Origin: Berberis thunbergii
Lineage: Eukaryota; Streptophyta; Magnoliopsida; Ranunculales; Berberidaceae
DNA: 64,000 nt
Direction of reading: 5' to 3'
Assembly: GCA_003290165.1 (NCBI GenBank)
Contig: QNQO01009147.1
Location: 1 to 64,000, forward strand
Positions 19,419 to 63,349 of this stretch are shown piece after piece. The notes below the pieces were generated by a model, which did not search any database, was not told the origin of the DNA, and saw nothing but the letters and a program-made list of their open reading frames with translations. Made by a program: the position numbers and the translations under genes. Within the stretch, counting starts at the first letter, position 1, and the number at the start of each line of letters is the position of its first letter.

Positions 19419-19640
19419 CACTACAACAAAAAGCCCATTAATAGCGTTTCAAAAACGCTACGGTAGGATACCATGGCGTTTTAGAAAACGCTATATCTGC
19501 CGGAGCTATAATAGACCCAGGTCTATTATAGCGTTTTTAAAACGCTATAGTAAGTTGGCCTTTTATCAGAAACGCTATTGTAGACTCTGCCATAGCGTTT
19601 CAAAAACGCTTTGAAACGCTATGGTAGGTATACATAGCAA
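19419..19640. repeat. CACTA-I left subterminal repeats
   Basis: At least six copies of a palindromic unit close to TAGCGTTTCAAAAACGCTA, in both orientations, within 220 bp of the terminus. Such arrays are the transposase-binding regions of CACTA elements. Confidence 0.85.
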
Positions 19641-19653
19641 TTTTTTTTTTTTT

Positions 19654-19700
19654 GCTATCAAATGACTTTTTATTACATCTTATAAGTTTTATTTCTAGAA
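19654..19700 (-). terminator. Conserved 3' module with polyadenylation-like signal (CACTA-I)
   Basis: This 47-bp segment recurs exactly, in reverse complement, at 38,227-38,273 in CACTA-III, and its inner part recurs in CACTA-II at 24,819-24,847. On the minus strand it reads AAATAAAACTTATAAG then GTAATAAAAAG, so it offers AATAAA-like signals at the end where the captured genes' transcription would stop. Confidence 0.6.
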
Positions 19701-20079
19701 CTTCACACAATGTATCCAAATAGATCATGTTCGCTGTAGTCCACTAGACTAAAGAAACAAAACCAATATTGGAATTTCTTCATAGACAAAGCAACATAGT
19801 GTATAAGCATTTAATAACAATGAGGAGATGGCCATAAAGCATTAATTTCAATCAGAAACTACCTAAGCTTCATTCATAAATCAGATCCAACAAATACAAG
19901 AGGAAGAAGAGCTTCAGGCACCACCTTACCCACTGAATGTGGATTGAACAAAGAAGTATAAACTATCTTAAAACACCTATTTTTGTGGGAAATAAACTAA
20001 GAATCACTGGATGAAAACCAGAACTTGGTCAGACAATTTTCAGGAGAAGAGTCAAAAATCAAAATTCCTTAGGATTTCA

Positions 20080-21960
20080 ACCTGAAATGCTTCTGTAATA
20101 GATGAAGAAACAGTTTTCTCAACAACTGGTGTGATGAGACGAGCTACAGCCTGCTCAAATACAGCAAGTTCCTTCTTCAGTATTTTCTCATGTTTGGCAT
20201 TCTCTTTTTGGAAACGGGCCCATAAAGCATCGGTGTTGGCCTTGATGGCTTTCTCCATGCTGCGGCCCAAGGCTGCCTCTACTATTTTACCTTCTTTGGT
20301 AACCGGGGTAGACACCATTGCCATTTGTTTTTGCAAATCCTTTTGCATGGTGAATAGCTGCAAACATAACAAATAGACAAGTTTACCTGGAATACGATTT
20401 ATGAAAGAGAGCTTAAGGAAAACATATTGACAAAATAATATCTCACCAACAATAAAAGTAATAATAACAATAGTAATCACTAAATGAATGAATAAATAAA
20501 TATGTCTAAACAATGAGAAAACGTACCTCAAATGAATAATATATAATTCCTACCCATGGTCTCGTCACTGTTTCATTGTTTTGCAATAACGATCCAAGTA
20601 AAATAGCTATTAAATAAACAAACTGTCGTACATTCATATGTAAAATTCAAACTTTTTGAAACTTACAGATTCATATCTCACATTTTCACAGAGACATAGT
20701 TTGATAGATATAGCTGCATTTGATGATAGTGAAGCTTTCAAAACCTAGACATACTCCTTGCAAGTAGCAATGAAATTAAGTAATTGACTTAAGACAAGAT
20801 ATACAAGTTCATTTTGAGGTTCAACGTGATACTGTGATACATGCCTTTCCATGAAGTATTTGACACAAAACTACTTTTCCAACTAGCTCTTTCAAAACAA
20901 ATGGAAAGAGAACTTTAACGAGTTCTCATATATGGATAAACATGACACTGTACTTACATTGTTTTTCCGTCATGTATCCATTCAAATACAAAGATTAAGG
21001 GCATAAACCAAAATGAATCAAGTATGTCACTGACCAGTGATTGGCTTCTACTGTTGAGGTTGCCCATCTATCAAATTCAGATGTCTTCTGAGCTTGACAA
21101 TATGACTTTGAACCTGTCACAGCCAAAACGCACAAAAGAAAGAAACAGTCATACCATATTGTGACTGGTTTCTCAATATAGAAGCATATCCCTTTATCAA
21201 ACTTTGCAGAATGGCGTACCAAAAATACTGTATCATATTAAAAGTAGTAGAAGAAAGAATTTAATAGTGGGACAATGGGTATGTAAGAGTAAGTGATTAC
21301 GTGGTTGAGTGTCCCCTGTATAGAAATAATCTGAGAAGACACAAGCTCCAAAGAAGAAACAATCGGAGTGCTACCAGGCACATTGGAAGAACCTGTGGGA
21401 CTGCATATCCTCGGAGATGGAGAAGACAGCCCGATACTTGAGAGATTAAACCCTTTTGCTTGTCAACTTTTGAAGCTGATGTAGTGGGTTGTTGAACTGT
21501 TGTTGCAGCATCCAATTCAGAAACCTTGCCAAGAACATTTTTTCTAGCATCCTGCATTTCTTCCTCACTGGCTCTTGGAGGCTGGTCCAATGCTTCAAAT
21601 GCCCTAGCATCATTAACTTGTTTCTTCTCAGAACTTAACATTTCAGTAGACAATGCACTACATTCTTTGGCCATACCAAGAATTTCGACTAAGTTAAACT
21701 ATGAGTACAAGTACCTGTCGATGTTTCTGACCCATAAAAGGGTCATTCCACAAAAAAATTAAACAAAGGAAACAAAAATACCTTATCAGAATTGTTTTTG
21801 GTAAGCACTGCTCCAACAAGCTTTGGGGCTTTGCTGCTTTCCTAAATGAACTTCTTCATCAACAAGAGCTAGCATAGGATGGTGATCATCTGTATCAGGT
21901 GAAGTATTATTACATGACTGATCATCAGATTTTCTTTGCATGACACAGATGTCTAAAACA
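20080..21960 (-). pseudogene. EDC4/VARICOSE-like fragment captured in CACTA-I
   Basis: EDC4 (VARICOSE in plants) is the scaffold of the mRNA-decapping complex in processing bodies. The exon at 20,362-20,080 (minus) encodes TMQKDLQKQMAMVSTPV, then ALGRSMEKAIKANTDALWAR and FQKENAKHEKI, ending with VVEKTVSSSITEAFQ, the conserved C-terminal EDC4 segment (about M.KEMQKQ..., LGR..EK..KANTDALWAR...E..K, E...SSAI..AFQ). It is bounded by TTTGCAG acceptor and CAG/GT donor sequences. The upstream exon region 21,674-21,297 encodes a serine/threonine-rich linker ending SLELVSSQIISIQGTLN, which fits directly onto the next exon. The N-terminal WD40 part is absent, so this is a partial copy with introns retained. 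Confidence 0.8.
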
Positions 21961-22015
21961 ATAGCATGTCAGCTAAAAGGTTAACCACATGAGGTAGAAA
22001 TCATGAGCACTTACA

Positions 22016-22800
22016 GCCAAGGATCATCTCCAACAAGCATCATATCATCTTCATTATCAGTAAACACCACCTGCCAGTTTTTGTTGTTAGCCATCAACTC
22101 GCCATTGAAGTCGAACATCTTGTCTAATTCAGCAATCAGTTCATCATAGTCCTTAAACTTGGTAAGGTCCAGAGACCTGCCAAGAGCAACCCTTGTTTGT
22201 GAACCTGAATTAAACAACTTCAGTACGAAGACTTCATACATTGAGACCAGTAATATAAAAATTGAATTCATCAAAACAAACCTTGGTGCAACTTCTGGTT
22301 GAACTGCCCTGGGTTTTGCCCGGAACATCTCTTGAACGCTGTTGACAAGCTAGTGAAGGCCTCTCAGGCTCATTTCGAACAAGATCGGTAGACTTTGAGC
22401 CCTTTGATGACTCTAATTGTTCATCAGACTCTTGAGCGTGTGAATGGTTCAAAACAGGATGGATATTGCTTTCTTGCTCAAATTGTATATTTGTATTAGA
22501 CTGTGCTGCCTCTGAAACAACTGGGTTCCTGATTAGTGAAAAATCCAAATGGATGGTAACTGCTCCTGACTTAACATTGAAGGTTGTGGTCTTCCTCCTC
22601 TAGTGTGGTGTGTAGTCTCAGAGTGTGATGGCGAGAGCATTGGCATCACCCAGCTACTAGGCTGTTCCACCCTGAGATTATGCTCAATGGAGTAGCCACC
22701 AAACCCACCATACCTATTAGAACCAGATTTCTGATAATCATTTGTTTGTGATGTTTTCATGCCAGAATCCAACATATTTAATGGACTAGTATTCATCATA
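22016..22800 (-). pseudogene. Auxin response factor (ARF2-like) C-terminal fragment captured in CACTA-I
   Basis: ARFs are DNA-binding transcription factors whose C-terminal PB1 domain pairs with Aux/IAA repressors. The minus strand encodes a variable middle region ending RDVPGKTQGSSTRSCTK, then after an intron the PB1 start VALGRSLDLTKFKDYDELI, AELDKMFDFNGELM and the acidic OPCA-like DNEDDMMLVGDDPW. That order and wording match the ARF2 clade. The B3 DNA-binding domain is absent. A one-base deletion near 22,188 (VHKQG-IALGR becomes out of frame) and a frame change near 22,545 break it. It lies just upstream of the EDC4 fragment in the same orientation. Confidence 0.88.
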
Positions 22801-24406: not shown

Positions 24407-24803
24407 CACTACACCAAAAATACCCATTAGCAACGGTTTGGAACCATGGGGGTAACCAATTTCCACGGCTTAGAGCCGTGGGCTGTAGAGGCTTCGCTAA
24501 ATCACTATTAACGGCTACAAACCGTTGCAAAAATGTTAGCCACGGTTTTATACTCGATGACGGTTGATGATTTAGCCACGGTTCTAAACCGTTGTAAAAA
24601 GTTTAGCCACGTTTTAAGCCGTGGCTAGGAATAGCCACAGATTAAAACCGTTGCAAGTTATGGCCTCGGTTCTAAGCTGTTGCAATAGTTTTAGCCATGG
24701 TTTTAAGCCGTGGCAAGTACCAGCCACGGCTTAAAACTGTGGCAAGTTATGGCCACGGTTCTAAACCGATGCAATAGTTAGCCACGGTTTTAAGCCGTGG
24801 CAA
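24407..24803. repeat. CACTA-II left subterminal repeats
   Basis: About a dozen units of GCCACGGTTTTAAGCCGTGG and variants (imperfect palindromes separated by TTAG/AAG spacers) within 400 bp of the terminus. Confidence 0.9.
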
Positions 24804-24818
24804 ATTTTTTTTTTTTTT

Positions 24819-24849
24819 CTATAAATGACTTTTTATTACATCTTATAGG
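24819..24849 (-). terminator. Conserved 3' module (CACTA-II copy)
   Basis: Shares ATGACTTTTTATTACATCTT with the 3' modules of CACTA-I and CACTA-III, directly inside the subterminal repeats and a T-run. It diverges after the TATA that follows. Confidence 0.6.
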
Positions 24850-25058
24850 TAAGTATAATTCTTGCATCAGGTAAGTAAAATTTAATATGACTTTTTATTA
24901 AATTTAAAAACAGCATTTACAACCTCTGATCAGCAATTGCTTTCAAGCAATTCATTACAGTAGCAACATTTACAATTCATTACAGCATAAATTTAGATCA
25001 TTCACAATTCATTACAGCACGTGCATCACTTCAGATCATTCACAACCTCTGATCAGCA

Positions 25059-25253
25059 ATTTTTTTCAGCAAATTCAATAATGCGCCCTTCTTCGTCAAT
25101 TTTCATCAGACCAAATGCAATGGCACGTTGTTCATCCATTGGCAGCGCAACAACAGTGATGTCAGCATTTGTTTCTCTATGAACTTGAATAAACTTCACA
25201 TAGTCCATACGGTATAGATGATCTCCAGCAAGAACCAAAAACTCCAGCACATT
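25059..25253 (-). pseudogene. ADP-glucose pyrophosphorylase small-subunit fragment captured in CACTA-II
   Basis: AGPase makes ADP-glucose for starch in plastids. The minus strand encodes [20 protein letters not shown], then [20 protein letters not shown] and [19 protein letters not shown], close to the small-subunit consensus through the catalytic region that follows the nucleotide-binding part. Only about 65 of roughly 520 residues are present and the frame ends shortly after EFAEK. It is the last captured fragment before the 3' end of CACTA-II. Confidence 0.9.
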
Positions 25254-26095
25254 GTGCCATTCAAAGAGCCATAAATATTGTCTTACAGCATCAACTCTTC
25301 CTTATAAATCATTAAAAACATGAATAAGATGGGGCTTCAATCATGAAGGACGTTTCAGATTGAAATTGCGCTCATAATGAAAGTTTAATTGACTGAAGTA
25401 AGAAACTCATTATAAATTGTACGTACTTCATAGGAGCCTAACTGAGCAAAACTGCGGAACAGAATGAACAGACTAAAATGGAAAATGTAGTTGAAGCTCA
25501 ACAACCAAGAGATTGACAGACTATACCAAAGCCTAAGGCATTGAACAGCTCCTGAAGTTCCATAGGAACATTTTTAACCTAGTATACCCCTAAATACGGC
25601 AATAAGCACCCTTACTCTGAAAAACGGTGTGTGTGTGTGTTGCTTTTCCTAGTATAGGGAAGTATACTACTGGACAGTCAGTAAACATATGCTATAATAA
25701 TGAGCTAAAATATTGAGCTGAGTTAGTTTTGCACTATGATGAGAGACGTTTGAAGAAAATGGAACTTGAATATGTAGGAAAAAGTAAACTGGCTAAAAGA
25801 CCAACTAGAAGCATCTGTTAGCCTGTTAAGCAAACTGTTAGGTTGGTCCATGTTAGGTTTGCTACTTTTATTCATGATGAATATGGGGAAGCCACTTTCA
25901 TACAGGGAGCATGCATCTTTTGAACAAACAATGCTACATCCTTATAACATTTGAAATGGAAAAAAAAAAGTAAAAAAAAATTCAAACATAATAGCGTGCA
26001 CATAAAGTATAAAAACAAATAAATTACAAAAGCACATAGGCACAAACTATGAAATCAATATGATTGATTGAAATCGGCATGATCCAAAAAAAATA
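25254..26095. other. Unassigned interior of CACTA-II
   Basis: AT-rich, includes a short GT repeat near 25,629. No domain recognised; intron-like. Confidence 0.35.
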
Positions 26096-26176
26096 CCTTA
26101 AAAAGCAAATAAGGAGTTCCAGTTTCTATCTGTGCTTTCAAAATCTCAAACCAGAGATTCTGTGCAGATACAACCT
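26096..26176 (-). pseudogene. Ribonucleotide reductase large-subunit exon captured in CACTA-II
   Basis: The large subunit (R1) reduces ribonucleotides to deoxyribonucleotides. The minus strand encodes KVVSAQNLWFEILKAQIETG then TPYLLFK, matching the conserved R1 segment (AQ.LWFEIL..QIETGTPYMLYKD). A GT follows the last codon. At its 5' side it runs without an intron into GPHK of the cysteine-synthase fragment, so two unrelated genes are joined exon to exon. Confidence 0.88.
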
Positions 26177-26665
26177 TCTTTGTGAGGACCTGTGTTTTGT
26201 AATAAAAAAAACGATGTGATATAGATGCAAACAACTGTGCTAGAAAATAGAAATGACGTTTCCATTGCTTTACCAGGTGTTCCACTAGAAAGAATGTTTC
26301 TTTCTTTTGGTTCAATACCAATAACCTGAAATGTGAAAAAATCAAATGAAATATGAACTATCAGTACCTATGTTAAGTAAATCAGACAGGAAATAAATGT
26401 TTAATGCAATAACATTGTACTTCTACAGCCCTCCATGATACCCATGTCATGCAACACATGATGGACAAGGGGATACACCACCTGTCAGATATGTATGATT
26501 TTAGTTTTCTCATGAAAAGAATAGAAAAGAAAAAGAACATGTAACCTTTACATTAGGGTTCTTTTTTTTCAGGAACCGACCCACCCCAGAAATAGTACCA
26601 CCAGTTCCAATCTCTGCAACAAATATGTCCACTTTGCCTCTTAAAGTAGTAACTAGGAGTTGGAA
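26170..26665 (-). pseudogene. Cysteine synthase (O-acetylserine thiol-lyase family) fragment captured in CACTA-II
   Basis: PLP-dependent enzyme making cysteine or beta-cyanoalanine. Minus-strand exon 26,665-26,547 encodes [20 protein letters not shown] then [12 protein letters not shown], containing the PLP phosphate-binding loop GTGGT. After an intron, 26,326-26,273 encodes VIGIEPKERNILSSGTPG, and TGPHK follows near 26,180. The order matches the family (DI.VAGIGTGGT..G.G..LK..NP..KV.GVEP.ESN.LSGG.PGPHK). The lysine-bearing N-terminal part is absent. Confidence 0.88.
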
Positions 26666-26893
26666 CAAACCAGCGGCTCTATAAAGATCTTAAACCTCCT
26701 GGGCTTCAGATGTAGCTTTGAGGCTGTGCAGCTATGCTTTTCCAGTAAAGACCACCTGCAACATTATTTGTTTATTTACTGTATTTTTATTTTCTTACGA
26801 GGAAAGGAGCATCACATATCAGCAAAGAAACAAAGATGAAAGTATGCAACTCCAGGCTAGCTGAAGTTAATCCAAAAACAGCACTTGTGCAGC
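26666..26893. other. Intron-like sequence left of LINE copy 2
   Basis: Possible upstream part of the cysteine-synthase fragment, not assignable. Ends at the LINE target site. Confidence 0.35.
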
Positions 26894-26907
26894 ATAAAAG
26901 CACACAT
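26894..26907. repeat. Target-site duplication of LINE copy 2 (left)
   Basis: ATAAAAGCACACAT, repeated exactly at 41,166-41,179, more than 14 kb away. Confidence 0.95.
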
Positions 26908-27541
26908 CCATAATCAAAGCCCATTCCCGAGATTTTCGGGGTCAGCTACATGGATTTTGGTTCTCCAAGCAAGGCGATCTTCCCAGATTTCCTCGTCTAA
27001 TCCAAGCTCAATGATATCTTCATTCACCATCTTCATCCAAGTTTTCAACGGTCATCCCCTCCGTTTATACCCTCCATTAACTTGCCAATCTAAACATTTT
27101 CTAATTGGCGCCGTGCTTGGTCTCCTCCGCACATGACCAAACCAAGTTAAACGTCTTTCTCTAATTTTGTCCTCTATGGGCACTACACCTAAGTATCTCC
27201 TAATTCTTTCATTTCAAATTTTATCCTTACGAGTTTTACCACACATCAACCTTAACATACGCATTTCTGCTACTGCAATCGTATGCGTATGTTGTCCCAT
27301 AGTAGCCCAACATTCTGAACCGTATAGCATGGCAGGTCGAACAATTGTCTTATAGCATTTCCCTTTTAGCCTTGCAGGCATCCTTCTATCGAATAGTACT
27401 CCTGACGCCATTCTCCATTTCAACCACCCAGCTTTAATCCTATGGTCTACATCTTCTCCAATAGCCCCATTCTTTTGAATTATAGATCCTAGATATCGAA
27501 AAGCCTCACACTCTAGGACCTCGACACCTTCGATCTCAATT
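26908..27541 (-). pseudogene. LINE copy 2: C-terminal region
   Basis: Minus strand: IEIEGVEVLECEAFRYLGS, then WRMASGVLFDRRMPARLKGK, YGSECWATMGQHTH and AEMRMLRLMCGKTRKDKI, then the LTWFGHVRRRP motif, the usual C-terminal end of plant LINE RT proteins. It is separated from its RT by the CACTA-III insertion at 27,542. Confidence 0.92.
27539..27541. repeat. Target-site duplication of CACTA-III (left), ATT
   Basis: ATT, repeated at 38,588-38,590. LINE copy 1 has the uninterrupted CTCAATTGCATTAC at 6,978-6,991. Confidence 0.92.
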
Positions 27542-27740
27542 CACTGCACCAAAAGGGATGTTTAGCAACGGAGAGGTAGCCACGGCTCTAAGCCGTTGGA
27601 TTATTTTCCATGGCTAAAAATAGTGGTAATAACGGACAACGGTTTATAACCGTGGCTAAAAAAATTACACCAAAAGGGTTGCCACGGTTTTTAACCGTGG
27701 CTAAACTTGCCAACGGTTTAAAATCGTAGCTATCAGATTT
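27542..27740. repeat. CACTA-III left subterminal repeats
   Basis: Units such as GCCACGGTTTTTAACCGTGG and CAACGGTTTATAACCGTGG, plus an internal repeat of the terminus (ACACCAAAAGGG at about 27,665). Confidence 0.9.
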
Positions 27741-27745
27741 ACACT

Positions 27746-28000
27746 TTTGCGATTTGGTGAAAATATTTTCGCGCTTTGGAGGGAGTATTTTCGCACTTTA
27801 GCGAAAAAAATTGGGGAGAAATAGGTTCTCACTCTCGCCACAGCTCCTCTTCACAAGCACGGATTCTCAAACCAGATAAGAAGAACTCAAGAAGGAGAGG
27901 ACAATAGAAGAAGAAGAAGAAGAAAAAGAAAGTTTGAGAAGGTAAGTGTCCTTCTTCTTTAGATCTTGAGAGAATTGAACTGAAGAAGAACATGAAATTG
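27746..28000 (+). promoter_or_regulatory. Candidate promoter/5' leader of CACTA-III
   Basis: After the subterminal array comes TTTTCGCGCTTTGG, then TTTAGCGAAAAAAATTGGGG, then CT-rich and GAA-repeat sequence ending in an AAGGTAAGT splice-donor-like site near 27,938. The equivalent end of CACTA-II (minus, 48,590-48,536) has TTTTGCGCTTT, GGCGAAAAATTTGGGG and a CT-rich leader. The shared layout suggests a transposon promoter and 5' leader with a first intron; this is inference. Confidence 0.45.
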
Positions 28001-29185
28001 GAACTCCATTGTCAGTTTCTTCATTCCAGTCGATTTCTTTCTCTCTCTGTCTAAATCACAAGTAGAAGAAGCATCTAAGCATCTCACCCCCTTCAGCTAG
28101 TAATAATCGCGTTGGAACTTGGAACCCCATGTTTGCCATTCTTCCAAATCTCAGTTTCTCTTTCACTCATGCTCATTATCAACCATTGGGTATCTTTCTA
28201 ATCAACTACAAAATCAACCAAATGATCACAGCAAGAAATGGGTTTGTTTTTCTGTCGAAACTAATTCGTGGGTTTAGTTTTATTTTTGTTAATAGTTTCT
28301 CAACCGGTCTGTTTGGTTGAGTTGGCTCTGTATTCCTTAATTGGGTTGTTTTTTGTTTTATCAAAGTGTTGTTCTTTTTCTTTTCATCATTAATTATGGT
28401 TTGTTTTTCTTCTTGTTTACATTCCACTGTTGAATTCATGTTGTTTGTGTTTGTACTATGGCTGTTTGGCTTCATATGAATGAATCATCACTTTTTCTTA
28501 GGGGTTTTCATTTACATCTTCACCATATAAGTTAAATTGCATTGTACAATTCGATCTCCGGTGCTTGCTCTCAATCCACTCTCCTATTCTTGTTGTCTTA
28601 GTTTTGGGGTTATACCCAATCTGTACTGAGATGACAGCTCAATGTTTCAGATAATTGAAGGTCGACCAAATCTTGAAGACAATATATAATGGTTTCTATA
28701 TCTAGATTGGGTGTTTACTGATGCACTGAGATCAGAGTAATTCTCTCAGGAACGGTGCTGACACTTTGTCTTTTATAGACTCATTGAGAGCATATTCTAT
28801 TATAGGTATTGGATTTTCACAAAATTATTTTGTTCAAATGTTGGTATTGTTTGTTCAATTCAGAAGGTCATTCTGATCTTATAGAAGCTTGGGCCAACCA
28901 TGCCTTTTTACTGTCACCTGTTAGTTTGAATTTGTGATTTACTTGAAGGATACTACAATACTCGAGTGGCGAGCAATCTTTCAAAAATGTGGGGGATTTT
29001 CACTATATTTCAAACAGTCTATTGTTATACGTCTATTATGTTATTAGTATTACTGTGGAAATCTGATTTAATTTACCTTAACACTCACGTTTTATGTGTT
29101 CCAGAGCTTGATCACCTTGTTTAAGACCAGCAATGATGGTTAGCACTCTGATTTTGGACTGGAAGGGTTCAATTGAGATGGTAGA
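28001..29185. other. Intron-like stretch of CACTA-III
   Basis: T-rich, no domain recognised. Confidence 0.35.
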
Positions 29186-29272
29186 ATGGAGAGGAAAAGG
29201 GTGGATGAATTTGAACCTGGATCAGTTCCACCTGTGAGACAAGTGGACAGATTCGGGTTCGTAAAGCAAAGA
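29186..29272 (+). pseudogene. RabGAP/TBC protein N-terminal exon captured in CACTA-III
   Basis: The plus strand encodes MERKRVDEFEPGSVPPVRQV then DRFGFVKQ, matching the N-terminus of a plant TBC-domain RabGAP group (xxFEPGPxPSxRxVDRFGFVKQ). Only the first ~29 residues are present; the TBC catalytic domain is absent. Identification rests on this short motif. Confidence 0.55.
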
Positions 29273-29591
29273 AGTAAACTCCCCCGATGGTCAACCCAGG
29301 ATTAGGTCTGCGATTGATCAAGAGAAGTGGGTTTTTAATTGTTGGAGCTGATAATTATTTCTCATTTGTTCATAGTTTCATTTATGTCTACAATAGGAAA
29401 CGATTTTATGAAATTATCATGTGGTGGTTCTTATTTTGTTCATGTCTATATGCTTTGTTGAATTATTGAAGTGCTGAACAATTGGTATTAGCTTGAAAAA
29501 AATGTCAAACATAATTTTATCGAGTGTGATCATGTTGGTAAGATGCATCATAATTGAAAGAACCTTGTCTTTCTCTTCCTCCATTGAGATG

Positions 29592-52087: not shown

Positions 52088-52090
52088 AGG
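52088..52090. repeat. Target-site duplication of CACTA-I (right), AGG
   Basis: Matches 19,416-19,418. Confidence 0.8.
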
Positions 52091-52564: not shown

Positions 52565-52572
52565 TATTTATA
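52565..52572 (+). promoter_or_regulatory. TATA-like box of the resident gene
   Basis: TATTTATA 116 bp upstream of the ATG at 52,688, giving a plausible 5' UTR of 80-90 bp. Confidence 0.5.
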
Positions 52573-52687
52573 CATCTGTTTAGGCCATTAACCTCTTATT
52601 GATCAGTTTCATTTGGTTTGACAAAGAGAGATTTCCAAGTGTAACACAATATTCTGAAGCTTGTGGTTAATCTAGAGATTATAGATC

Positions 52688-54415
52688 ATGATGAATGCAA
52701 CAAGGGCCTTTGGTTCTAGTGATTTGATGAGTACTGTTGATCGCCTTGCTAGTCACAGGTCTCGAGCATTGGTTCTTATTCCCTACCACACCATAGAGAT
52801 GTTTAGGTCTACACATCCTAGTCGTTTATCAAGCACACATGGCGTATCGCTAAAAAATTTGCCTAGCATGCACCATAAGAAGATGTAACCATTTCGTTTC
52901 TCCCATCAATTCAATTTTACTGTGTTTTCATACATCTTGTTACAGGTTTAATGCGCAACACTAATTACATTTGCTTGATGTAGGTTTGTGACACTCTGTG
53001 GCAGTGTTCCTCCAGGACCAACTTCGGATTCTTGGTAATGTATATGTTATTATATGGCTGCTTACAATTCCTTATGCTTCAACGTTCTTTGATTGTCAGA
53101 TGTTTAATTTAACCATTTTCATTTTAAACATGCAGGAAACTTTGGCTTTTGGGAGGATTAATATCCTTGATCATACCGTTTTGGAAGAACAAATGGTCTC
53201 CATTACTAGTTCTGAAAAGTAAGAACAAGGGGATAGATCATTATTCTAACTTTGAAATGAAATGAAGTGCTTTTCATTAGCTTTTAAGTTCAGTTAATCC
53301 AGACTTTTGCTTTTGCAGTTAAGCTAATTTATTAAACTTCTGAATATTTAGGTAAGGCTGATAACATGGTAAAGTCGTTGGACACGGTGGTGGAGGTTGT
53401 CGAAAAGGTGGCAGAGGAGGTGGAGAAGGTGGCTGAGAATCTCACAGAGAAGCTCCCAAAGGGTGTAAAGGTTAGGAATGCGATTGATTTGGTTGAAAGT
53501 ATGGCCAAAGAAGTAGCAGAGGATGCCCAAGTAGCTGATGAGATGATTCACAAGGTATACAGTTTTCTGAGAATTGAAACTTTGAATAAACAAATGGAAA
53601 TAATAACCAAAAAATAACAGAAAGAAATGCTAACTGGAAGAAAAAATAATAATAACCATGTCAACTAAGAATGAATTATTAAAATGTTTGATAAAATACT
53701 ATAAACCAAAGCAACAAAATATCACTGAGATTCTTTGCAGAAAAATTTACTCTTATTGGTCCTGTAAAAAATCGAAATATGTCGAGTAAAGGTATGTTAA
53801 AAATGACTGCTATTTGTTTGTACATAAGTGATGTCGTCAATATCTTTTATAAAGTTTATCTACAATAAATTATTAATCAATATCTGTGATAATCCTTTGA
53901 ATTAGTCCTACGGGAGGCTTTCTTACTGAACAAGGGATACAACTTGGTTACATCCAATCATAGTTGACTTGTATTAATCAAGGGACTTTTTTTTTAATTA
54001 TCTTTGACTGATGATTATAGAATTGGGTTTTGACTTGAAAAGGTGGAATTGGATCTTGAGTTGCATAGTTAACAGAAAACTCTACCATGGCTATCTAAAG
54101 TTTATGATGGAGGTCATCGTAAGTATTATTTTGTACTGTGGTAAAACTTGGGGATATTGTTTTGAGTATATTATTTCGTGAAAAGTATTATCATTTATAT
54201 ATACAAGATCGAGCACAAAAGATGTTACAGCCGGTGGTGCAAAATACCTTACATTATGTTTTGTTTTTAACCGTAACCTTATTCATATAAAAATGCAGGC
54301 AGAGGAAGTGGAAAAGGAGGTTGAAAAAGATGTGGAAGCAATCACAAAGGCGAACATGGAGCAAGAAAATAAGGAACGGAAAAATGAGGGGAAGGAAGTT
54401 AGTGACAAGAGTTAG
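52688..54415 (+). CDS. Uncharacterised plant membrane-anchored coiled-coil protein, five exons
   Basis: Exons by reading frame and splice sites: 52,688-52,884, 52,984-53,034, 53,136-53,218, 53,352-53,554 and 54,299-54,415. The sum is 651 bp, giving 216 residues plus stop, and every junction is GT...AG and keeps frame. The N-terminal ~80 residues are Ser/Arg-rich with few acids, compatible with organelle targeting. Then SVPPGPTSDSWKLWLLGGLI and SLIIPFWKNKWSPLLVLKS give one hydrophobic segment with a basic flank, followed by a long Val/Glu/Lys coiled coil (VVEVVEKVAEEVEKVAENL and AEEVEKEVEKDVEAI) and a charged tail. I recall plant proteins of this layout (W..W.LG...S.IIPFWKNKWGPLL.LK plus coiled coil) without an assigned function. 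It is the only gene in the window with an undamaged multi-exon structure. Confidence 0.78.
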
Positions 54416-54822
54416 CCTAAACTTTATTGGTTTGGTGCAAAACATATTTTCAAATGCATGTCAAAACTGAAGTAACATTGGTTTGTAATCGATTTGTTTA
54501 TTATTTGAATATAAAGATAACAATATTTTGTAAAGTGTCACATCCAGTTCATAAAATCACATCCAGTTTATAACAATATTCTATATAAGTTCATAAAAGC
54601 ATGAATATAGGCTACATAACAAAGATTGAAAAAACGAAATCATTGTAATAAACTTCATTTTATCAGCAATTTTGACAAATAAAATCATTCTTTACCAACT
54701 CTCAGGTACAAAAACAAAAAAAATCAACAAAAAATTCGACATGATCAAACTTTAGCATTTGGCTCTGAATTACTAAAACAGTTAGGGCTAAACAAGAACA
54801 AACAAATAAGAAGGTGAGCATA
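54416..54822. other. 3' flank of the resident gene
   Basis: AT-rich, with ATATAAAG/AACAATA signals about 90 bp after the stop that could serve polyadenylation. Nothing else seen. Confidence 0.4.
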
Positions 54823-54831
54823 AAATAGTAT
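54823..54831. repeat. 9-bp target-site duplication of the Mutator-type MITE (left)
   Basis: AAATAGTAT, repeated at 55,016-55,024. Confidence 0.85.
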
Positions 54832-55015
54832 GAGAAATTCTAAATGGCGAGGAAGTGGGCGAGGAAATCAGCGAGGGAGGGAGAGAAGGGACCGCCCATC
54901 CCCCTCGGGATGTGTGCATGAAAAATGATGGTGTGTATCCCGAGGAGATGAGCGGTCCCCTCTCTCCCTCCCTCGCTGATTTCCTCGCCCGCTTCCTCGT
55001 TGTGTAGAATAGCTC
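54832..55015. mobile_element. Mutator-type MITE, 184 bp foldback
   Basis: Two inverted arms of about 78 bp separated by a loop of about 25 bp. The outer ends are GAGAAATTCTAAATGGCGAG and, in reverse complement, GAGCTATTCTACACAACGAG; the inner arms match almost perfectly. A perfect 9-bp TSD (AAATAGTAT), the Mutator signature length, flanks it. No coding capacity. Transcripts through it would form a strong hairpin. Confidence 0.9.
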
Positions 55016-55024
55016 AAATAGTAT

Positions 55025-55786
55025 ATACTGATGTTAATTTTTTGCTACAACACAATGCGATTGAGACACGTAAAAAATGTGGCTCGTCCATTCTTAGACA
55101 TGCACAAACAACAATCTTGAATACACTAAGGGGGTGTAGTTTCCTTATTTGGTCTTATAACGCTTGTTCACCAATTTTCAGCGGAAATGCATATTGAGTA
55201 TTAATTTCCTAATGCATAAAACAAAAGTTGCACCTGCAACTACAAAACACTAAATGATTATATTGTTATAAGCAACATAAATTTAGTTACAGAAAATAAA
55301 ACCTACTAACCTAATTACTAGGATGCTCTAGCCTTGTACTAAAACAAAAGGACATATCAAATCAGTTATTAGTGAAAATTTTACTCTGCAAAGTTTGAAG
55401 TATCCAAATTCTTTGTTATAAATTGTGTACTAATTTGGTCATATTCAAGGAGAGGCATCGTTTTTTATGATCTAGTGAGGGTTAGTCGATGGAACTAACA
55501 GTGCAGAGTTGAACAAAAGAACTCATATTCATGAAAAGTAAAAATAATAACAATAATAAATAAATCCTGTATGGATATAGTACCAAATGATCTTAAGCTA
55601 AAGAAGCTTCTTTTGATATTATTTCATTGAATCAGTCCATGGCACCCAAATAACAATTTGCACGACAAATATGTAATAATTTGTGTACTTTGAATTATAA
55701 CTTAAAACAGAAACTTAAAGAATTATCAGAGGATCCAAACCTTTTTTAGCTACATCTATTTCTATAAAATTTCACTACACACCATT
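55025..55786. other. Non-coding stretch
   Basis: AT-rich, no gene recognised. Confidence 0.4.
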
Positions 55787-56290
55787 TGATGCGTCCAAAT
55801 CTATCGTCATAGAGATCTAACCTGCAAAACAGGGTTAGATTGCCAAAGACTATTTGTTTGGTGACCAAAGGCACTCTGATGCTTAAGTCAGTTAATCTGT
55901 GGGAGAGAAAGAATTTGGACAAAGTATAGTTCAGTTATGTTTGCATACCTCTTGTCAAATGTGGCGTAGTTAACTCTATGCATGATTTAAGCATGTATGG
56001 CGCGATGAGAGGAGACGTTTTTCACAACGGTCTTCTCCTTCATTGACATATGTCCATGGGGGAGTGATTCCCGCCATGACTTGTCTCCTTCGTAACGTCT
56101 CTCTTCTCTAAGGGAAGAAATCCATTGGGCCTGAACTTGGGCCTTTGATTATGATCTATTATTAAAGACCTTTTTGGGCTTTAATGATCGGACCTGCCTA
56201 TTTGGGCTTCTAGGATCGGACTTGTTATCCGTGTTGAAATTGAAGTGTTTGTTCCTCATGATGGACGATCTTTGCCACGTGTACAGTCTT
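55787..56290 (-). repeat. 3' LTR of the gypsy element (inner boundary approximate)
   Basis: Aligns with 61,483-61,703: shared ACAGGGTTAGA, TTGCCAAAGAC/CTGCCAAAGACC, GATGCTTAAGTCAG, GTTTGCATACCTC and TTGCATGATTTAA-like blocks. The rest of the LTR has no copy in the window, so the inner edge near 56,290 is set only by the end of the pol frame. Confidence 0.75.
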
Positions 56291-56300
56291 GATTATAGGA

Positions 56301-57461
56301 TTATTTGATGTATTTGCCGAAATGAATCTCTCGTAGAGCGTAATCGGCATCACCGGGTGAAAACCATCTTAGGAGCAGACTTGTGGCAGACCTCCTATAA
56401 AGTTTGTCTTTAATCAATGTGTACCGTGTTGTTCTATTTTGTAGTTTACAGACCTCCATCTTTTCCGTTGGTAGTGTTCCGTTTTGTATGTACGTCAAAA
56501 TTGGAGTTATCCAATTGCTCTCATGATCTGTTGCACACATTTTTTGTGTTTGGTTCTCCAAAATTGAACTTTCTTGTACTGTGACGAGTGGATTACCAGT
56601 TTCTTCAGCACTTGACGCTTCTTTAGCCAAGTTGTATGCTCTTTCATTTTCTGCTCTTGCGCATCATTAAACTGTTATTGCTTTGAAGCTTTCAATACGC
56701 TCGCTCGCCTTTTGATTGTATGTTTTCATCTGCGCATCTTTTACTTGTAATTCGACATTCAACTGGTTGACGACCAATTTGGAGTCAGTGAAAACATTGA
56801 CTTCTTTTATTATGAAGTGTTTATCCAATTGTAATTCAACTATTACTGTTTTATACTTGACTTCGTTGTTTGAGGATTTAAAATTGAATTTTATTGTCTT
56901 TTCTAATGTTACTCCTTCTGAGTTGTACATGGTTATTCCAACTCCACTTCCCTTTTCATTGGATGCTTCGTCATGACGTAGGATTCATACTTGGGCATTG
57001 GGTTCAGCAATTTTATGCTCAATATTGTTGTCCGATTGATGTAAGTTAAAGCCTGTGAACTCAACGATGAAGTCTATTAATGCCTGAGTTTTCATTGTAG
57101 TCTTAAGAGCATAGCTGGTGTCAAACTGACTGAGCTCTATTGCTCATTTCACCATTCTTTTGGACAGCTCTGGTTTATGTAGTACTGACAGAAGTGGGTG
57201 TTCAGTTATGACAGTGATGGGGTGGGCATGGATCTACGGTTGCAATTTTCTAGAAGATACAATCAAGGCGAGTGCTAGTTTCTTCAGAGATGGGTAATTA
57301 ACCTCTATGTTCGAAAATGTTTTATTGGCATAGTAGACTGACTTTTGTGTGTTGTTCTCCTCGCGTATCAATGTCGAGCTGACTGCATATTCGGACACTG
57401 ACAGATACAAGTATAATGTCTCGCCTGGTTTTGGCTTTGATAATAGTTCATTGCTCCCCAT
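56301..57461 (-). pseudogene. Gypsy RNase H and integrase N-terminal relic
   Basis: Minus strand: LLSKPKPGETLYLYLSVSEY and VYYANKTFSNIEVNYPSLKK, the RT-RNase H joint; MYNSEGVTLEKTIKF and FTDSKLVVNQLNVELQVKDA, the Tat/Athila RNase H; then WITPILTYIQNGTLPTEKME, RTTRYTLIKDKLYRRS and SPGDADYALREIHFG, the integrase zinc-finger start. The frame stops there, so the catalytic core of integrase is deleted. Confidence 0.9.
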
Positions 57462-57689
57462 GTATGTGAACAGGCTTCAGAAAGCCTACTCGAATTCTTC
57501 ATTTCATTTGAACATTTGAACATTTTTTTCCCTTTCAAGATCTTGAAAAAGGAAAGGCCTTTATCTAATGATATGGAGATGAACATGTTCAAGGTTGTTA
57601 TACTACCATTAAGGCATTGTACACCTTTGATGTTGGTAGGTGATTGCATGCTAAGGAGTGCTTATATCTGTTTTGGATCAGCTTCAATC

Positions 57690-58330
57690 CCTTTCTGATT
57701 GACCATGTACCCGAGGAACTTCCCTGAATCTACTCCGAACATATACTTTCTGAGTTCAGCTTCATTTTGTACTTGTGGAGCTGAGAAAATGCTTGTTCAA
57801 GGTCTTTGATGTAGTAATCTTTAAGTAAGCTCTTGACTAGCATGTCATCAAAGTACACCTCCATGTTCTTTCCAATCTTGTCTCTGAACATTTTGTTCAC
57901 AAGATGTTGTTACATAGCTCCAGCATTTTTTAGTCCGAATGACATCATTCGGTAGCAGTATGTACCTCTTTCTGTTTTGAAAAATGCATTTTCCTGATTT
58001 GATGGGTGCATTTGTATCTGGTTGTAGCCAAAATATGTATCCATGAAGCTTAAGAGTTCGTGTCCAGAAGTGGCGTCCACTATCTAATCTATACGTGGGA
58101 GTGGAAAGCTATCCTTCGGGCAGGCTTTGTTGAGGTCTGTGTAGTCCATGCATACCCTCCATTTTTTGTTCTTCTTTTTAACCCGAATTGTGTGGGCCAA
58201 CCAATCTAGGAAGTGGGATTCCTTGATCATCCCTACATTTATTAAGCGATGGACCTCATTGTTGATTGCTTGTTATGCTCTAGGGAAATTGGCCTTCTTT
58301 TCCGTCAGTTTGGCTTCTTATCCACGTTGA
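57690..58330 (-). pseudogene. Gypsy reverse transcriptase relic
   Basis: Minus strand reads MDTYFGYNQIQMHPSNQENA, FFKTERGTYCYRMMSFGLKN, MFRDKIGKNMEVYFDDMLVK and then SGKFLGYMVNQKGIEADP, the order of Ty3/gypsy RT. The catalytic YVDDM reads YFDDM. Several stops. Confidence 0.9.
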
Positions 58331-58546
58331 CTTGAAACCTGTGAGTGATGACGGAGGGGTCAATGCCCAACATGTCTTACATTGTCCAGGCGAAGACGTC
58401 TTAGTTGTCCTTCAGCAGTTAGATCAATTTTTTAGTCAACTCCTAGTAAAATTTTGTGTCAATCCAAATTGTTTTCCGCCCTTCTTTATCGTCCAGATGG
58501 ATCGATATTGTCTCCTCTTCCATTTGGCCAATACTTAGTCGACCTT

Positions 58547-58936
58547 TTAGACTATTTGGAGCTGCATTGTCCTCTGAGAGGTCGTGATCCATCTGCACTT
58601 GAGTGAGTTGTTGTGATAGCTCCTTTGATCGTGACTGTGATTGCTATGTGTTGGGGGGTTCATTGCTGCATAATGACATTCACACACAATCAGCTGGTCT
58701 CCTTTGGCGATCCCAACGTCATCACCAACGTGATCCTTCGGGCATTGGTGTAGGGTGGAAGATATTGCACCCATTTCATGTAGCCAATGTCTTCCTAGAA
58801 GCATATTGTATCTTGATGGTGCGTCGACAACGAAGAAGTCCATTAATAAGACTCGTTGTTTACCTGGTGTTTCTTCCACAATTGGTAATCGAATAAGTCT
58901 GAGTAGGTGGCAGTGCTCGCCAATGAATCCCGCCAT
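58547..58936 (-). pseudogene. Gypsy protease relic
   Basis: Minus strand: FFVVDAPSRYNMLLGRHWLH then EMGAISSTLHQ, matching the retropepsin-like segment of Tat elements (F.VVD.PS.YN.ILGRPWLH...AVPSTLHQ). The active-site DTG lies outside this frame and is not clear. Confidence 0.85.
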
Positions 58937-60243
58937 AGGTTGGTATGGTGTAACTCCTTCGTTGAACTACATTTTGCAGAATGTCGACAGGAATAGGAGG
59001 TTGGCCTAGCTACCCGTGTCGATGAATACTCTTTTGACTTCCCACTAGGCTATAGACACTAAAATCACCAGGGCGTCATTATGGGGGAAATGAACTCCAT
59101 GTGCATCTTTCTCAGAAAAGGTTAGAGTTTGGTGGTCAATTCTAGTGCGTTGAACGGGAAGTTCCAAATATCAAATTCTCATTCGTAAGTCTCAGATGGA
59201 TCACTTCCATGATCGGTTAGATCGTTCGCTTTTTCCGGCTACGCCATGTAAGACAAATATCATTTTTTGGACTGTTCATTTGACACCGCAATAGTGTCCA
59301 TTTTTTTTTCCCTTTGGACTGTTTGTCTTTTAGCCCAACAAATTCACCAAGTTGTTCTTTCTAGATCCAGTACTAGACTTCATTTTTTAAGTTGTAGCAA
59401 TCTGTCGTATCATGTCTGTGGTCCTTGTGGAAAGAACAATATTTGTTCTTATCTCGTTTGGTCGGATATCCCTTTAGTTTGAGTGGCCATTTGACATTTT
59501 CCCAGTTTGCCATAGACTTCAAGATGGTTGTCGAACTTATTTTTAGAACAGTGAACGGTTTGTACTTAGTGTTGACCGCTCATGTCTGGCTATTTTGGAT
59601 TGTAGTTTTCCGTGTTGGTCTGATACCTTTTGGATTGACCATGTCCTCCTTCGGCCTATCATCTCTCATTCTCCTATTTTTGGATTCGTTGGGAATGACC
59701 TTTTCTCGTACTCATTTCTTTTGGCGACCCACGTCTCCTCAAGGGTGATGTATTGTTTTAGCACTTTTCAGCAAGGTCATCATGCTTATCGAATGATCAA
59801 GGTTCAGAGAGTTGTAATTTTAGTTTGGAGGTGAAAGTGATTACGGCCGTATTCTCGCTGCATCCATCGATCATGGTTAACTAGTCAGTGAAACGAGTAA
59901 CATACTCCCTGAGAGTCCCATCAAACTTTTGCTTGATGTGAAGCAAATAATGAGGATCTTTTCTGATCCGTTGACTGCCAATGAACCTTGTGATGAAGGC
60001 CATAACCAATGCTTTAAAATAATTTATTGATCTAGACAGAAGGCTATTGAACTACCTCATTGTTGTGGATGTGTGGCTAGTCGGAGAGGTTCTGCACGTG
60101 ATGGACTTTGTGCTTTCTTTCAATACCATCATATGGTTGAAATGATGTAAATGGTATGATGGATCAGTAGTGCCATCATAAGTTTCAAACTTTGGCTTAG
60201 TGAACTTTTTCGACATAGGGGTCTTCATAATTGCATCGAATAA

Positions 60244-60251
60244 TGGTGGCC
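60244..60251. repeat. 8-bp target-site duplication of the hAT element (left)
   Basis: TGGTGGCC, against TGGTGACC at 60,924-60,931: seven of eight match. Confidence 0.8.
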
Positions 60252-60923
60252 CAGTGTTCTAAAAATCGCTAGGCGCTGGGCGGGCGGCGAGCAGGTGCCT
60301 AGCGCCCAGGGGCCTAGGCGGGTGCCTAGGCGATCTTAAGTTTTGTATTATAACTTTAATAATTTATAAAAGTTAAGCATAATACCTTATCAATTACATC
60401 CAATTTAATGCCAATATACATATGCAAAATTTAAAAACATGAAAAATTAACAATCGTGAACAAAATTTATTAAAACTCAAATGACTAAAGTTGGTCATGA
60501 TGGGTACTTTATATAAATTTGAATTTGTGTAATTTTTATTTTTCTTCAAATTGCATGAATAACCTCAGTTATTTTTTTATAAAATCTACATTAGTAAAAT
60601 TGGTACCGGCAGATCCTTTGAGAATTCTATTAAGTAATCATCCTTTGCTATATTGAGACATATACTGAATAAAAAATAAGTAAATAGTTTATTTCTAAAA
60701 AATAGGAAAGAAAAATAAAATAATAACACAATCAGCCTTATTAAAATAAAAAAATTAAAAAAAATAAAAATTAAAAAAAAAATCGCCCAGACCGCCTAGA
60801 CCCCGCCTAGACCCGCCCAGACCAGCCTAGACCCGCCCAGACAGCCCCGCCCAGCCATTAATCTGGGCGGTTTTACACCTTCTAGCGCCTAGGCAGCCGC
60901 CCAGGCCGATTTTTAGAACACTG
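60252..60923. mobile_element. Non-autonomous hAT element, 672 bp
   Basis: Perfect terminal inverted repeats CAGTGTTCTAAAAATCG / CGATTTTTAGAACACTG with an 8-bp TSD. Subterminal zones are GC-rich CCTAGGCG/GCCTAGAC repeat arrays; the centre is AT-rich and non-coding. It needs a hAT transposase from elsewhere. Confidence 0.92.
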
Positions 60924-61482
60924 TGGTGACCTGAATAACTCGTAAAACAAATTGGGACCTGTAACTCCAATCTTGAATAAAACTTGTAGATGAATTCCAT
61001 CAGTCTAGGATGCATCTCCCTAAGGTTCACTTCCTCCAAGGTTCTGCAGAAGCTTCATGGTTCTCTCGGACGTGGTTGGCAAAATTTTGTTGAAGTGGCG
61101 TTTTGACGTGTTCGAAAGGTGGGACACATTCCTGAGCGAGCTTTTCGACCACTCTAGATAGATAATCCATCTGGGCCAAAAGTTGGTCCACACCAAGATC
61201 CCTCATTGTACCACAAAATATATGGGCTTGTTGGGCCACCATATCGTGTGGTGGTGCTGCATTACCTTGTATAATCGGTTCTCCCAGTGTTGGATTCGGG
61301 ATATGCCTGCTCGAAAATTCAGTTTCACTGGTGGAAGGGTTGCCTTGATTGTTGCTAAGCTGAGAATTTGTAGGAAGTTCAATTTGCACTAAATCTTTAT
61401 GTTACTAACTTGCGCTAAAGAAACTACCAAAAAAAGTTTTCTTTAAAAAGGAAATTGTCATTCCCTATGGACGTCACCAAAC

Positions 61483-61703
61483 TGATGCGTCCAAATCTAT
61501 CTTTTTAGATATCTGACCTACAAAACAGGGTTAGACTGCCAAAGACCACCTGTTTGGTGGTCGAATGCACTCCGATGCTTAAGTCAGCTAACTTGTGGAA
61601 AAGAATGAATTTGGACAGAGTATGATTTAGTTGTGTTTGCATACCTCTCGTTGAATGTTATATTACTTTATATAATGTGTTGTTAACTCTTTGCATGATT
61701 TAA
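61483..61703 (-). repeat. 5' LTR of the gypsy element, truncated by CACTA-IV
   Basis: Begins TGATGCGTCC and is alignable with 55,787 onward up to GCATGATTTAA, where CACTA-IV enters. The undisturbed 3' LTR continues with GCATGTATGG. Confidence 0.88.
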
Positions 61704-61917
61704 CACTACACCACAAATGACTATTGATAGTGGTTCATTATAGCGTTTTTGCAGTTAGTGCTATGAAAAACCTATTTTTAATGACATTTCAATATTAAAA
61801 TGCTAAAAAAATGGAAGAGCGGGAGTTAAAAAAATCGCTCGATTCTCCTCAAAAAATTTAGAATACCCTTCATCTCTCTAGCCAAATACCAAAAAAAAAA
61901 AAAAAAAAAAAAACACA

Positions 61918-62350
61918 GCTCCTCTCACTTTCCTTTTGTTGTTGCCTTATCTCTCACCCTTTCCTCTCGCGTTTTCCCTCGCCCCCTAGAAGGGCTCCTC
62001 TCTAGGAGAGAGAGAGATCGAGGGAGAAAGAAAAATGGAGAGGACTAGGAGGAGCCTTCCTCCACAAGATCAGGACTCTGCAATCTTCATGGATTTGGAG
62101 CTTCATTGAAGATGACTTCGAGAAGCTTTGCTTTGGCCTGAGCTAAGATATTATGATATCTTCAACCGGCTTCAATTTTGCGTCTTTGGGGAAAATATTG
62201 AGCTAGTGAATTATCTGCTTGAAAGATTGGAAAGTCGGAGGCGGTGGAAGGCGGAGATCGTCGTGAAGGATGGTGAAAGAAGGAGAAAATGCGGAGAGGA
62301 AGATGAGAAAGGCTATAAAGGTGAGACCTTTGAGGTAAAGCTCGATTTTT
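61918..62350 (+). other. 5' leader and short open frame in CACTA-IV
   Basis: CT-rich then GA-rich sequence with a 77-codon frame (62,128-62,361, start MLWPELRYYDIFNRL) of unknown family. Likely transposon leader rather than a gene. Confidence 0.35.
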
Positions 62351-62654
62351 TTTCTCTTTGATTTCAATGGGGTTTTGGGTTGGTGGTGTGGCAGTAGAGA
62401 AAATGAAATGTTGAACGTTTTATGAAATGGGTGAAAGGGATCTCTGAGTTGACCTGAAACCAAATTGAGGAAAAGAGAGAAGAAAGGCAGGTTGAGAGAG
62501 TGTAAAGGGAGAGTTTCTAATTGGTGGATGGTAGTTGTGATGGAGTTGTTGAGAGAGAGTCAACGAGAGACAGCGATTGGATGAAGAGGAAAGAAAGGTT
62601 GTTTTGCTTGAGATTGGAAGTCAAGAAATTATCAACGGTGGCAAACAGATTTTT

Positions 62655-62878
62655 GATTTCTATTGGATGATCCATTTAGTGCAGTTGATGTTCATACCGC
62701 TACGAGCCTCTTTAATGTAACATTTCCTAACCTCATTGAATCTATGCTCAGCTACTTTCTCCTTGCGAAAGCTAACTTGTTTTATGGCAGGAATATGTAA
62801 TGGAAGCTCTGACAGACAAGATAGTATTATTAGTGACCCACCAAGTTGATTTCCTCCCTGCGTTCGATTCAGTTTTGG
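62655..62878 (+). pseudogene. ABCC (MRP-type) transporter two-exon fragment captured in CACTA-IV
   Basis: ABCC transporters move glutathione conjugates and other anions into vacuoles. Exon ending near 62,718 encodes LDDPFSAVDVHTATSLFN (Walker B and the following D-loop); after an intron of about 72 bp, exon 62,792-62,878 encodes [20 protein letters not shown] then FLPAFDSVL, with the H-loop His in THQVDFLP. The exons join in frame. Membrane domains and Walker A are absent. Confidence 0.92.
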
Positions 62879-63349
62879 TTAGTCTCCACTCCACCCCCCT
62901 GAAATTCTTATGAATATTCTTTTGTGGTGATTTAATTTCTTCGTCGCCTATCTAAGTCCGGTTATCTCATCCTCTTATCATAAGAATACATGATGTGTAT
63001 GTTCTTTGTTGGATCATATAGTTGGTTCTTGTTATTTTAGTTGGTCTATATCCAATACCTTTTAGTCTTCTGATGAAAAGTTGATTATTTAATACATTGG
63101 GTGTTGTTGTGATTTCCTCCTCAACACTTGCCACTGTTTTACTTCCCCATGGAACTTTTACTGCTGGGGAGTCATTCACTCTTCTAGTTCAGTTGTTATT
63201 TTGTATCTTGAATGCCCATATACTTGTATATAATTGATTTTGATACTTGTATAAAATATGAATATCCATCTTTCGATTACATGAACATAAAAGATCAACT
63301 ATTTATATGATGTTAAATAAATATTTTGTTGCACCTACATGTATACAAG

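Follow-up and report, generated by a model that had tools for sequence, protein, structure and literature searches.

How and why DNA transposons collect pieces of host genes is an open question, and a 64,000-nt stretch of Berberis thunbergii DNA (contig QNQO01009147.1, positions 1 to 64,000; hereafter the window) raises it in a particular form: it holds CACTA elements packed with exon and intron pieces of unrelated genes, nearly all of which read in one direction relative to the element that carries them. Three complete elements are nested here, CACTA-III lying in a long interspersed nuclear element (LINE) within CACTA-II, and CACTA-II within CACTA-I; the left end of a fourth, CACTA-IV, is also present (Table 1). 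We read them as non-autonomous Pack-CACTA elements in which pieces captured as DNA were kept mainly in the sense that runs from an upstream end (A) to a downstream end (B), as a splice-compatible transcription unit, and give this reading a probability of roughly 0.45.

All six ends of CACTA-I, II and III start with CACTR and form terminal inverted repeats (the left end of CACTA-III is CACTG, and the inverted repeat of CACTA-I, CACTACRACA, is short). The 3-bp target-site duplications of all three are perfect, and the right end of CACTA-IV is absent from the window. Direct and inverted subterminal repeats gave scores of 41 between the A and B ends of CACTA-II and 42 between those of CACTA-III, against a shuffle maximum of 29, and GCCACGG..CCGTGGC-type units were seen by eye; those of CACTA-I (GCGTTT units) were seen by eye only, its weak A/B score of 22 being equalled in 57 of 2000 shuffles. 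No transposase family was among the Pfam matches from six-frame scans of CACTA-I, II and III, the LINE stretch 38589-41179 lying outside the scan. The three complete elements of an earlier, preliminary description of this locus stand, with the starts of CACTA-II and CACTA-III corrected to 24407 and 27542. Helitrons carrying gene fragments resemble these elements in their multi-gene trains of exon pieces, and a same-orientation bias of such fragments, which our literature search did not retrieve, belongs to the background on them. Helitrons transpose by a rolling-circle mechanism and have neither terminal inverted repeats nor target-site duplications, and the presence of both here rules out that identity.

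The direction of each element was read from its ends. The A ends of CACTA-II and CACTA-III (CCAAAAGG type) share 81% identity over 181 aligned bases and their B ends (CCAAAAATGG type) 81% over 272. Like-end scores were 67 (A/A) and 186 (B/B) versus cross-end scores of 36 and 43, which also exceeded all 300 shuffles because repeat units are common to both ends. With like ends matching best, CACTA-II and CACTA-III are inverted relative to each other, and the captured pieces invert with them, as had been described. The termini and subterminal repeats of CACTA-I otherwise differ from those of the other two, and its A and B ends were assigned because of a 22-mer common to all three.

This 22-mer, AAGATGTAATAAAAAGTCATTT, which contains AATAAA, was missing from the preliminary description. 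It lies without a mismatch just inside the downstream end of each element (left in CACTA-I and CACTA-II, right in CACTA-III), always in the same sense, with an A-rich tract 4-6 bases further on; the distance from AATAAA to the tract is 13-15 bases. Local alignments of the B ends extend over 60 bp at 97% (I versus III) and 48 bp at 96% (I versus II), and the module bridges two terminal families, that of CACTA-I and that of CACTA-II and CACTA-III. Read in element sense, the 22-mer and its tract look like a poly(A) signal and tail, as would suit a downstream end. A scan of viral contigs gave 0 matches to the 22-mer. CACTA-IV resembles both ends of CACTA-I weakly (A end, score 33, reached by 1 of 2000 shuffles; B end, score 28, reached by 2 of 2000), an ambiguity for which orientation by end homology was rejected.

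The search for captured pieces favoured neither strand, since six-frame scans treated both equally, with X at stops. Pfam covered 14420-38588, 41180-55798 and 59002-64000 (outside it lie 1-14419, 38589-41179 and 55799-59001). The PDB searches took in all six frames of 24411-38587 but just the three minus frames of 41180-52087, so that Pfam is the sole search behind the plus strand of the right part of CACTA-I and CACTA-II. Four pieces (EDC4, ABCC10, kinesin and the EH domain) are not strand-blind, since each was noticed by eye on a single strand before it was tested. The matches of AUX_IAA, cysteine synthase, ribonucleotide reductase and raffinose synthase fell below the Pfam curated cutoffs, the last three with PDB support. 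Ten peptides typed by eye gave one Pfam match to the EH domain, one to BLUF (E 0.07) that was taken as chance, and none for the remaining eight. Weak Pfam matches to NAT10 helicase (E 0.066, minus) and, all on the plus strand, to TIG_2 (0.089), Dam1 (0.035), Pap_E4 (0.32) and the PAN3 zinc finger (0.18) were discarded as noise. A PDB search with the joined kinesin peptide returned no kinesin; its matches to a C-type lectin (E 8e-4) and IQGAP1 (0.85) were regarded as coiled-coil-like chance.

Results showed that 16 donor genes have database support, 15 in CACTA-I, II and III and one in CACTA-IV. Fifteen lie in sense, the CACTA-IV piece being taken as such, and one, which we take to be WUS exon 1, lies antisense in CACTA-I. 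Three further pieces recognised by eye (presumably threonine aldolase, EGY2 and TBC/RabGAP) are all in sense. Among database-supported pieces, 12 of 12 are in sense in CACTA-II and CACTA-III together and 2 of 3 in CACTA-I; the strand-blind tally, with the four pieces first seen by eye dropped, is 11 sense versus 1 antisense. Under a binomial test that assumes independent pieces, 14/15 in sense (kinesin out, CACTA-IV in) gives p 0.001 and 18/19 (kinesin and the three by-eye pieces in) p 8e-5, both treating plus in CACTA-IV as sense, while CACTA-II and CACTA-III alone give 11/11 without kinesin, p 0.001. The earlier count of about 17 pieces in four elements, nearly all in element sense, is borne out, as are its strands: all minus in CACTA-II, all plus in CACTA-III, and in CACTA-I two minus (ARF PB1 and EDC4, both sense) with the WUS homeodomain on the plus strand, antisense. 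The single plus piece claimed for CACTA-IV is present as ABCC10, and the A/B assignment of that element is not fixed by its end.

The retained introns and splice borders indicate that genomic DNA, not spliced RNA, was captured. On the sense strand, AG precedes and GT follows the exons of EDC4, ribonucleotide reductase, the first helicase exon, threonine aldolase, EGY2, the EH-domain protein, kinesin (second exon) and raffinose synthase, some of these borders lying a few bases off the edge of the typed peptide. No AG stands in front of the second helicase exon, the cysteine synthase borders are not clear, and the AGPase piece ends without splice borders, as judged by eye. Introns remain between the exons of the helicase, PWI and H+-ATPase pieces, and gene order is kept in MLO between the two stretches for which coordinates were given. 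These introns and borders speak against retrocopy capture. Breakpoints apparently lie mostly outside exons; the WUS piece, by eye, presumably stops inside one. Because the pieces are decayed, with a frame change in the H+-ATPase piece for example, selection at the protein level is an unlikely cause of the polarity. The preliminary description had suggested that a single sense transcript was either the route by which pieces were acquired or the object of selection: multi-gene capture in one polarity holds for CACTA-II, for CACTA-III and, bar WUS, for CACTA-I, whereas acquisition via a spliced transcript is unlikely given the introns and the AG and GT borders.

The DNA between the recognised pieces points the same way. 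After masking of all recognised pieces, including those found by eye, T exceeded A on the sense strand in 57 of 69 interior blocks of 250 bp versus 36 of 68 flank blocks (Fisher 2e-4, neighbouring blocks not being independent). In 1-kb blocks the interior was T-rich in sense in 16/16, two of them barely (0.004 and 0.007), and the flanks, on the plus strand, in 11/17. U-rich introns are usual in plants, so the unrecognised interior, too, was probably derived from genes that read in element sense.

Table 1. Elements, captured gene pieces and related features of the window, in window coordinates. "Presumed" marks names that are our own assumption.
Feature	Positions	Strand	Details
CACTA-I	19419-52087	sense minus	A end 52087, B end 19419; outermost, non-autonomous; CACTA ends, AGG/AGG duplication; 22-mer sets B end
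CACTA-II	24407-48906	sense minus	sits in CACTA-I; CACTACACCAAAA ends, CAT/CAT duplication
CACTA-III	27542-38587	sense plus	sits in LINE within CACTA-II; CACTGCACCAAAA / CACTACACCAAAA ends, ATT/ATT duplication
CACTA-IV	61704-64000	plus	left end alone in window, CACTACACCACAAATG; polarity unsettled
EDC4/VARICOSE exon in I, sense	20082-20357	minus	94 matches incl. EDC4 by name, best E 5e-52; AG before, GT after exon
Presumed ARF PB1 (AUX/IAA family) piece in I, sense	22014-22184	minus	Pfam AUX_IAA E 5e-4, slightly under curated cutoff
Presumed WUS exon 1 in I, antisense, sole exception	49534-49860	plus	Homeodomain E 7e-12 at 49675-49857; translation
AGPase small-subunit piece in II, sense	25056-25310	minus	Pfam and PDB, E 1e-39
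Ribonucleotide reductase large-subunit exon in II, sense	26091-26210	minus	Pfam and PDB; splice borders
Cysteine synthase piece in II, sense	26540-26644	minus	Pfam and PDB; without clear splice borders
DEAD-box RNA helicase, three exons in II (third by eye), sense	41700-42202	minus	Pfam and PDB
MLO, several pieces in II, sense	43086-44533	minus	two frames: E 4e-50 (4 stretches), E 4e-20 (3 stretches)
Presumed threonine-aldolase-like, two exons in II, sense	44815-45290	minus	by eye; without Pfam support
Presumed EGY2-like, two exons in II, sense	45910-46185	minus	by eye; no Pfam match
EH-domain (EHD1-like), two exons in II, sense	47090-48060	minus	Pfam EH E 2e-5, exons joined; splice borders
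Presumed TBC/RabGAP-like piece in III, sense	29186-29272	plus	by eye; no match in Pfam and protein searches
Kinesin KIN-5C, two exons in III, sense	30200-30439	plus	weak: 12/12 matches kinesin, E 0.04-0.2
Presumed SRS/DUF702 piece in III, sense	30702-30872	plus	Pfam E 4e-8
Sulfate-transporter-like (SULTR) piece in III, sense	33020-34110	plus	E 3e-25; matched part 33119-33709, remainder by eye
PWI-domain, two exons in III, sense	34147-34467	plus	Pfam and PDB
Plasma-membrane H+-ATPase, two decayed pieces in III, sense	34873-35191	plus	PDB; frame change in translation
Raffinose-synthase-like exon in III, sense	35245-35379	plus	Pfam; weak PDB support, 0.049; splice borders
ABCC10 exon in IV	62791-62877	plus	20/20 matches with ABC-transporter domains, ABCC10 among named ones
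B-end 3' module of CACTA-I	19660-19681	minus	AAGATGTAATAAAAAGTCATTT, 13 A after 6 bases
B-end 3' module of CACTA-II	24823-24844	minus	identical 22-mer, 14 A after 4 bases
B-end 3' module of CACTA-III	38246-38267	plus	identical 22-mer, (AAAAT)n after 6 bases
Leader-like region inside A end of III	27740-27941	plus	GCGCTTT..GCGAAAA..TTGGGG; donor-like GAGAAG/GTAAGT at its end; aligns with II
Leader-like region inside A end of II	48530-48620	minus	related to III leader-like region by alignment
LINE, one arm, split by CACTA-III	26947-27541	minus	outer edge approximate; 87-92% match to second LINE copy from 6388
LINE, other arm	38588-41181	minus	85-94% match to second copy at 6979-11247; reverse-transcriptase-like open reading frames by eye

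How such a polarity might arise can be set out from the parts of the elements. In the reading as a splice-compatible transcription unit, the upstream A end consists of terminal and subterminal repeats, with a related leader-like stretch in CACTA-II and CACTA-III, and the downstream B end of a short module resembling a poly(A) signal, an A-rich tract, subterminal repeats and the terminus. The interior between them has been replaced by many genomic exon and intron pieces from unrelated genes, taken up as DNA, probably via repair copying or excision of neighbouring copies; excision of neighbouring copies together is a published Pack-CACTA model (PMC8903248, PMC13317346). Survivors would mainly be pieces in A-to-B sense, since splicing of a transcript that runs from A to B can pass through these. 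A piece lying the other way would bring terminators, or give rise to RNA complementary to the transcript of an active host gene, and be purged or silenced. Selection for such a sense-compatible unit would fit the related A-end leaders of CACTA-II and CACTA-III and the poly(A)-like B end shared by all three complete elements.

Several points weigh against this reading. There are only three or four elements, three well oriented and one mixed, and the element-level sample is tiny, so the window alone can neither prove a general polarity rule nor separate capture bias from selection. The WUS piece is antisense and the 250-bp blocks adjoining it lean against sense (1/5); the polarity of CACTA-IV is unsettled. 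A-to-B transcription, with the A ends as promoters, is a prediction, and the poly(A) role of the 3' module is likewise read from sequence alone. The flank at 12.0-19.4 kb is T-rich in 6 of 7 1-kb blocks, and hence long same-sign runs occur outside the elements too. Splice motif counts in the unrecognised DNA gave no clear bias (donors 7:4, acceptors 8:8) and were not used as support.

Among the alternatives, a bias at capture itself survives best, although we hold it to be a doubtful cause. Repair synthesis from one element end would copy transcribed donors one way, for example through R-loop invasion, and selection would not be needed. The uniform sense of unrelated pieces in CACTA-II and CACTA-III, the different A and B ends, which might provide the asymmetry, and the kept introns, which mean that DNA was copied, all agree with it, and the available text of PMC8903248 reports that Pack-CACTAs inserted locally show a conserved orientation, though for element copies and not for donor genes. 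The antisense WUS piece speaks against such a bias, and the neighbour-excision model, as far as the available text of PMC8903248 and PMC13317346 goes, nowhere fixes the direction of the donor gene. Coincidence is the less likely explanation: a few capture events per element, inherited as blocks, would leave an effective sample of three or four. That only three complete elements lie in the window, with CACTA-I mixed 2 to 1 and CACTA-IV unsettled, is in its favour, but the pieces within each element derive from different gene families, CACTA-II and CACTA-III have no donor gene family in common among the 12 recognised, and the 11/11 obtained without kinesin would, for independent pieces, be hard to ascribe to chance. 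Filling through RNA, by reverse transcription of polyadenylated, partly unspliced transcripts that were put between CACTA ends with the poly(A) end setting the polarity, is very improbable, since despite the LINE and B ends built like a polyadenylated 3' end (AATAAA, 13-15 bases, A-rich tract), the pieces of unrelated genes retain introns and splice borders, the module homology is limited to about 50-60 bp and may be an old 3' untranslated region remnant, and A-rich runs are not rare (14 in the window, both strands).

Some features near the element ends are recorded in their own right. The CACTA-II module is partly doubled at 24823-24906 (minus), a second copy with 4 mismatches lying about 60 bp upstream. 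The A-end leader regions hold sites that we presume to be E2F-like at 27767 (plus, CACTA-III), 48556 (minus, CACTA-II) and 51987 (plus, CACTA-I), namely TTTTCGCGC, TTTGGCGAAA and TCTCCCGC; the two main patterns occur 9 and 2 times in the window and were picked post hoc, without a shuffle control. By eye, the CACTA-II leader has a repeated stretch (GAAGAATTGGAGAGGAGGTGAAGAGGATTCGAGTGAGG) at 48180-48300 and 48480-48540, and the A-end region of CACTA-I at 51500-51960 has degenerate repeated units of the GAGGGAGTTCTTG.. type.

The surroundings contain further mobile DNA. A second LINE copy lies at 6.4-11.2 kb, with alignment offsets of 20559-20560 for one arm and 31609 for the next block; these place the insertion point of CACTA-III at about 6979-6981 of the second copy, which would fit an uninterrupted site in that copy. 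At 63679, a fifth CACTA left end (CACTACAATAAATG) has subterminal repeats of another kind and is perhaps nested in CACTA-IV. At 55787-61658 lies a decayed retrotransposon with 176-bp end repeats 84% similar and a minus-strand gag match, and CACTA-IV begins 46 bp further on. An inverted repeat with 73-bp arms, 86% complementary, and a 40-bp spacer occupies 54831-55016, and a Copia-type gag match (Retrotran_gag_3, E 2e-6) at 14420-19418 (minus) adjoins CACTA-I from outside.

Multi-gene capture by CACTA elements is known, as the preliminary description had noted with the example of Tgm-Express1 in soybean. In this 5.7-kb CACTA element of the wp allele, fragments of five unrelated genes are spliced into a single transcript as cassette exons (PMC1947982). 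The element is likewise packed with exon and intron pieces, and their splicing in one transcript implies, unstated, a one-strand train in a single element. Tgm-Express1 differs in its small size and its five pieces, and the transcripts isolated from it begin outside the element, at the host F3H promoter; the main text does not use the word "orientation" and places one predicted open reading frame in (-) frames (PMC1947982). No 3' module is described in the available text of that paper, and no literature search aimed at such modules was made. The Tpn1 family of Japanese morning glory also comprises non-autonomous CACTA elements with kept ends and an interior of host genic DNA, in lengths to 40.6 kb and with chimeric transcripts, although in another plant and, in the available text, with no mention of the orientation of captured pieces (PMC5105172). 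Arabidopsis Pack-CACTA and Pack-TYPE elements share the non-autonomous state, CACTA-type ends and captured coding DNA, and in maize Pack-CACTAs carry the most distinct loci; there the orientation of non-autonomous elements is called not easily defined, and donor-gene polarity goes unreported in the sections available (PMC8903248). CACTA gene capture is also described for wheat 3B (PMC4290129). We found no statement on the polarity of CACTA-captured genes in the available portions of PMC8903248, PMC13317346, PMC8978399, PMC3288121, PMC5105172, PMC4290129 and PMC2575219, and an orientation-directed literature search, which is no proof of absence from print, gave no report of polarity across CACTA elements.

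The kind of element is thus already known, as multi-gene CACTA and Pack-CACTA, and its interest here lies in the polarity and in the 3' module that the elements share. A tentative extension, which we consider possible but not probable, is that large Pack-CACTAs of this plant are transcription units of gene scrap. They would have a leader upstream and, downstream, a 3' poly(A) cassette exchanged between two terminal families, would keep captured exons almost solely in the sense of the unit, and would act as natural exon traps with a content filtered at the level of RNA. If strict and tied to ends that can be told apart, the sense polarity would separate models of capture bias from models of RNA-level selection, and a 3' module common to two terminal families would show how such elements exchange parts.

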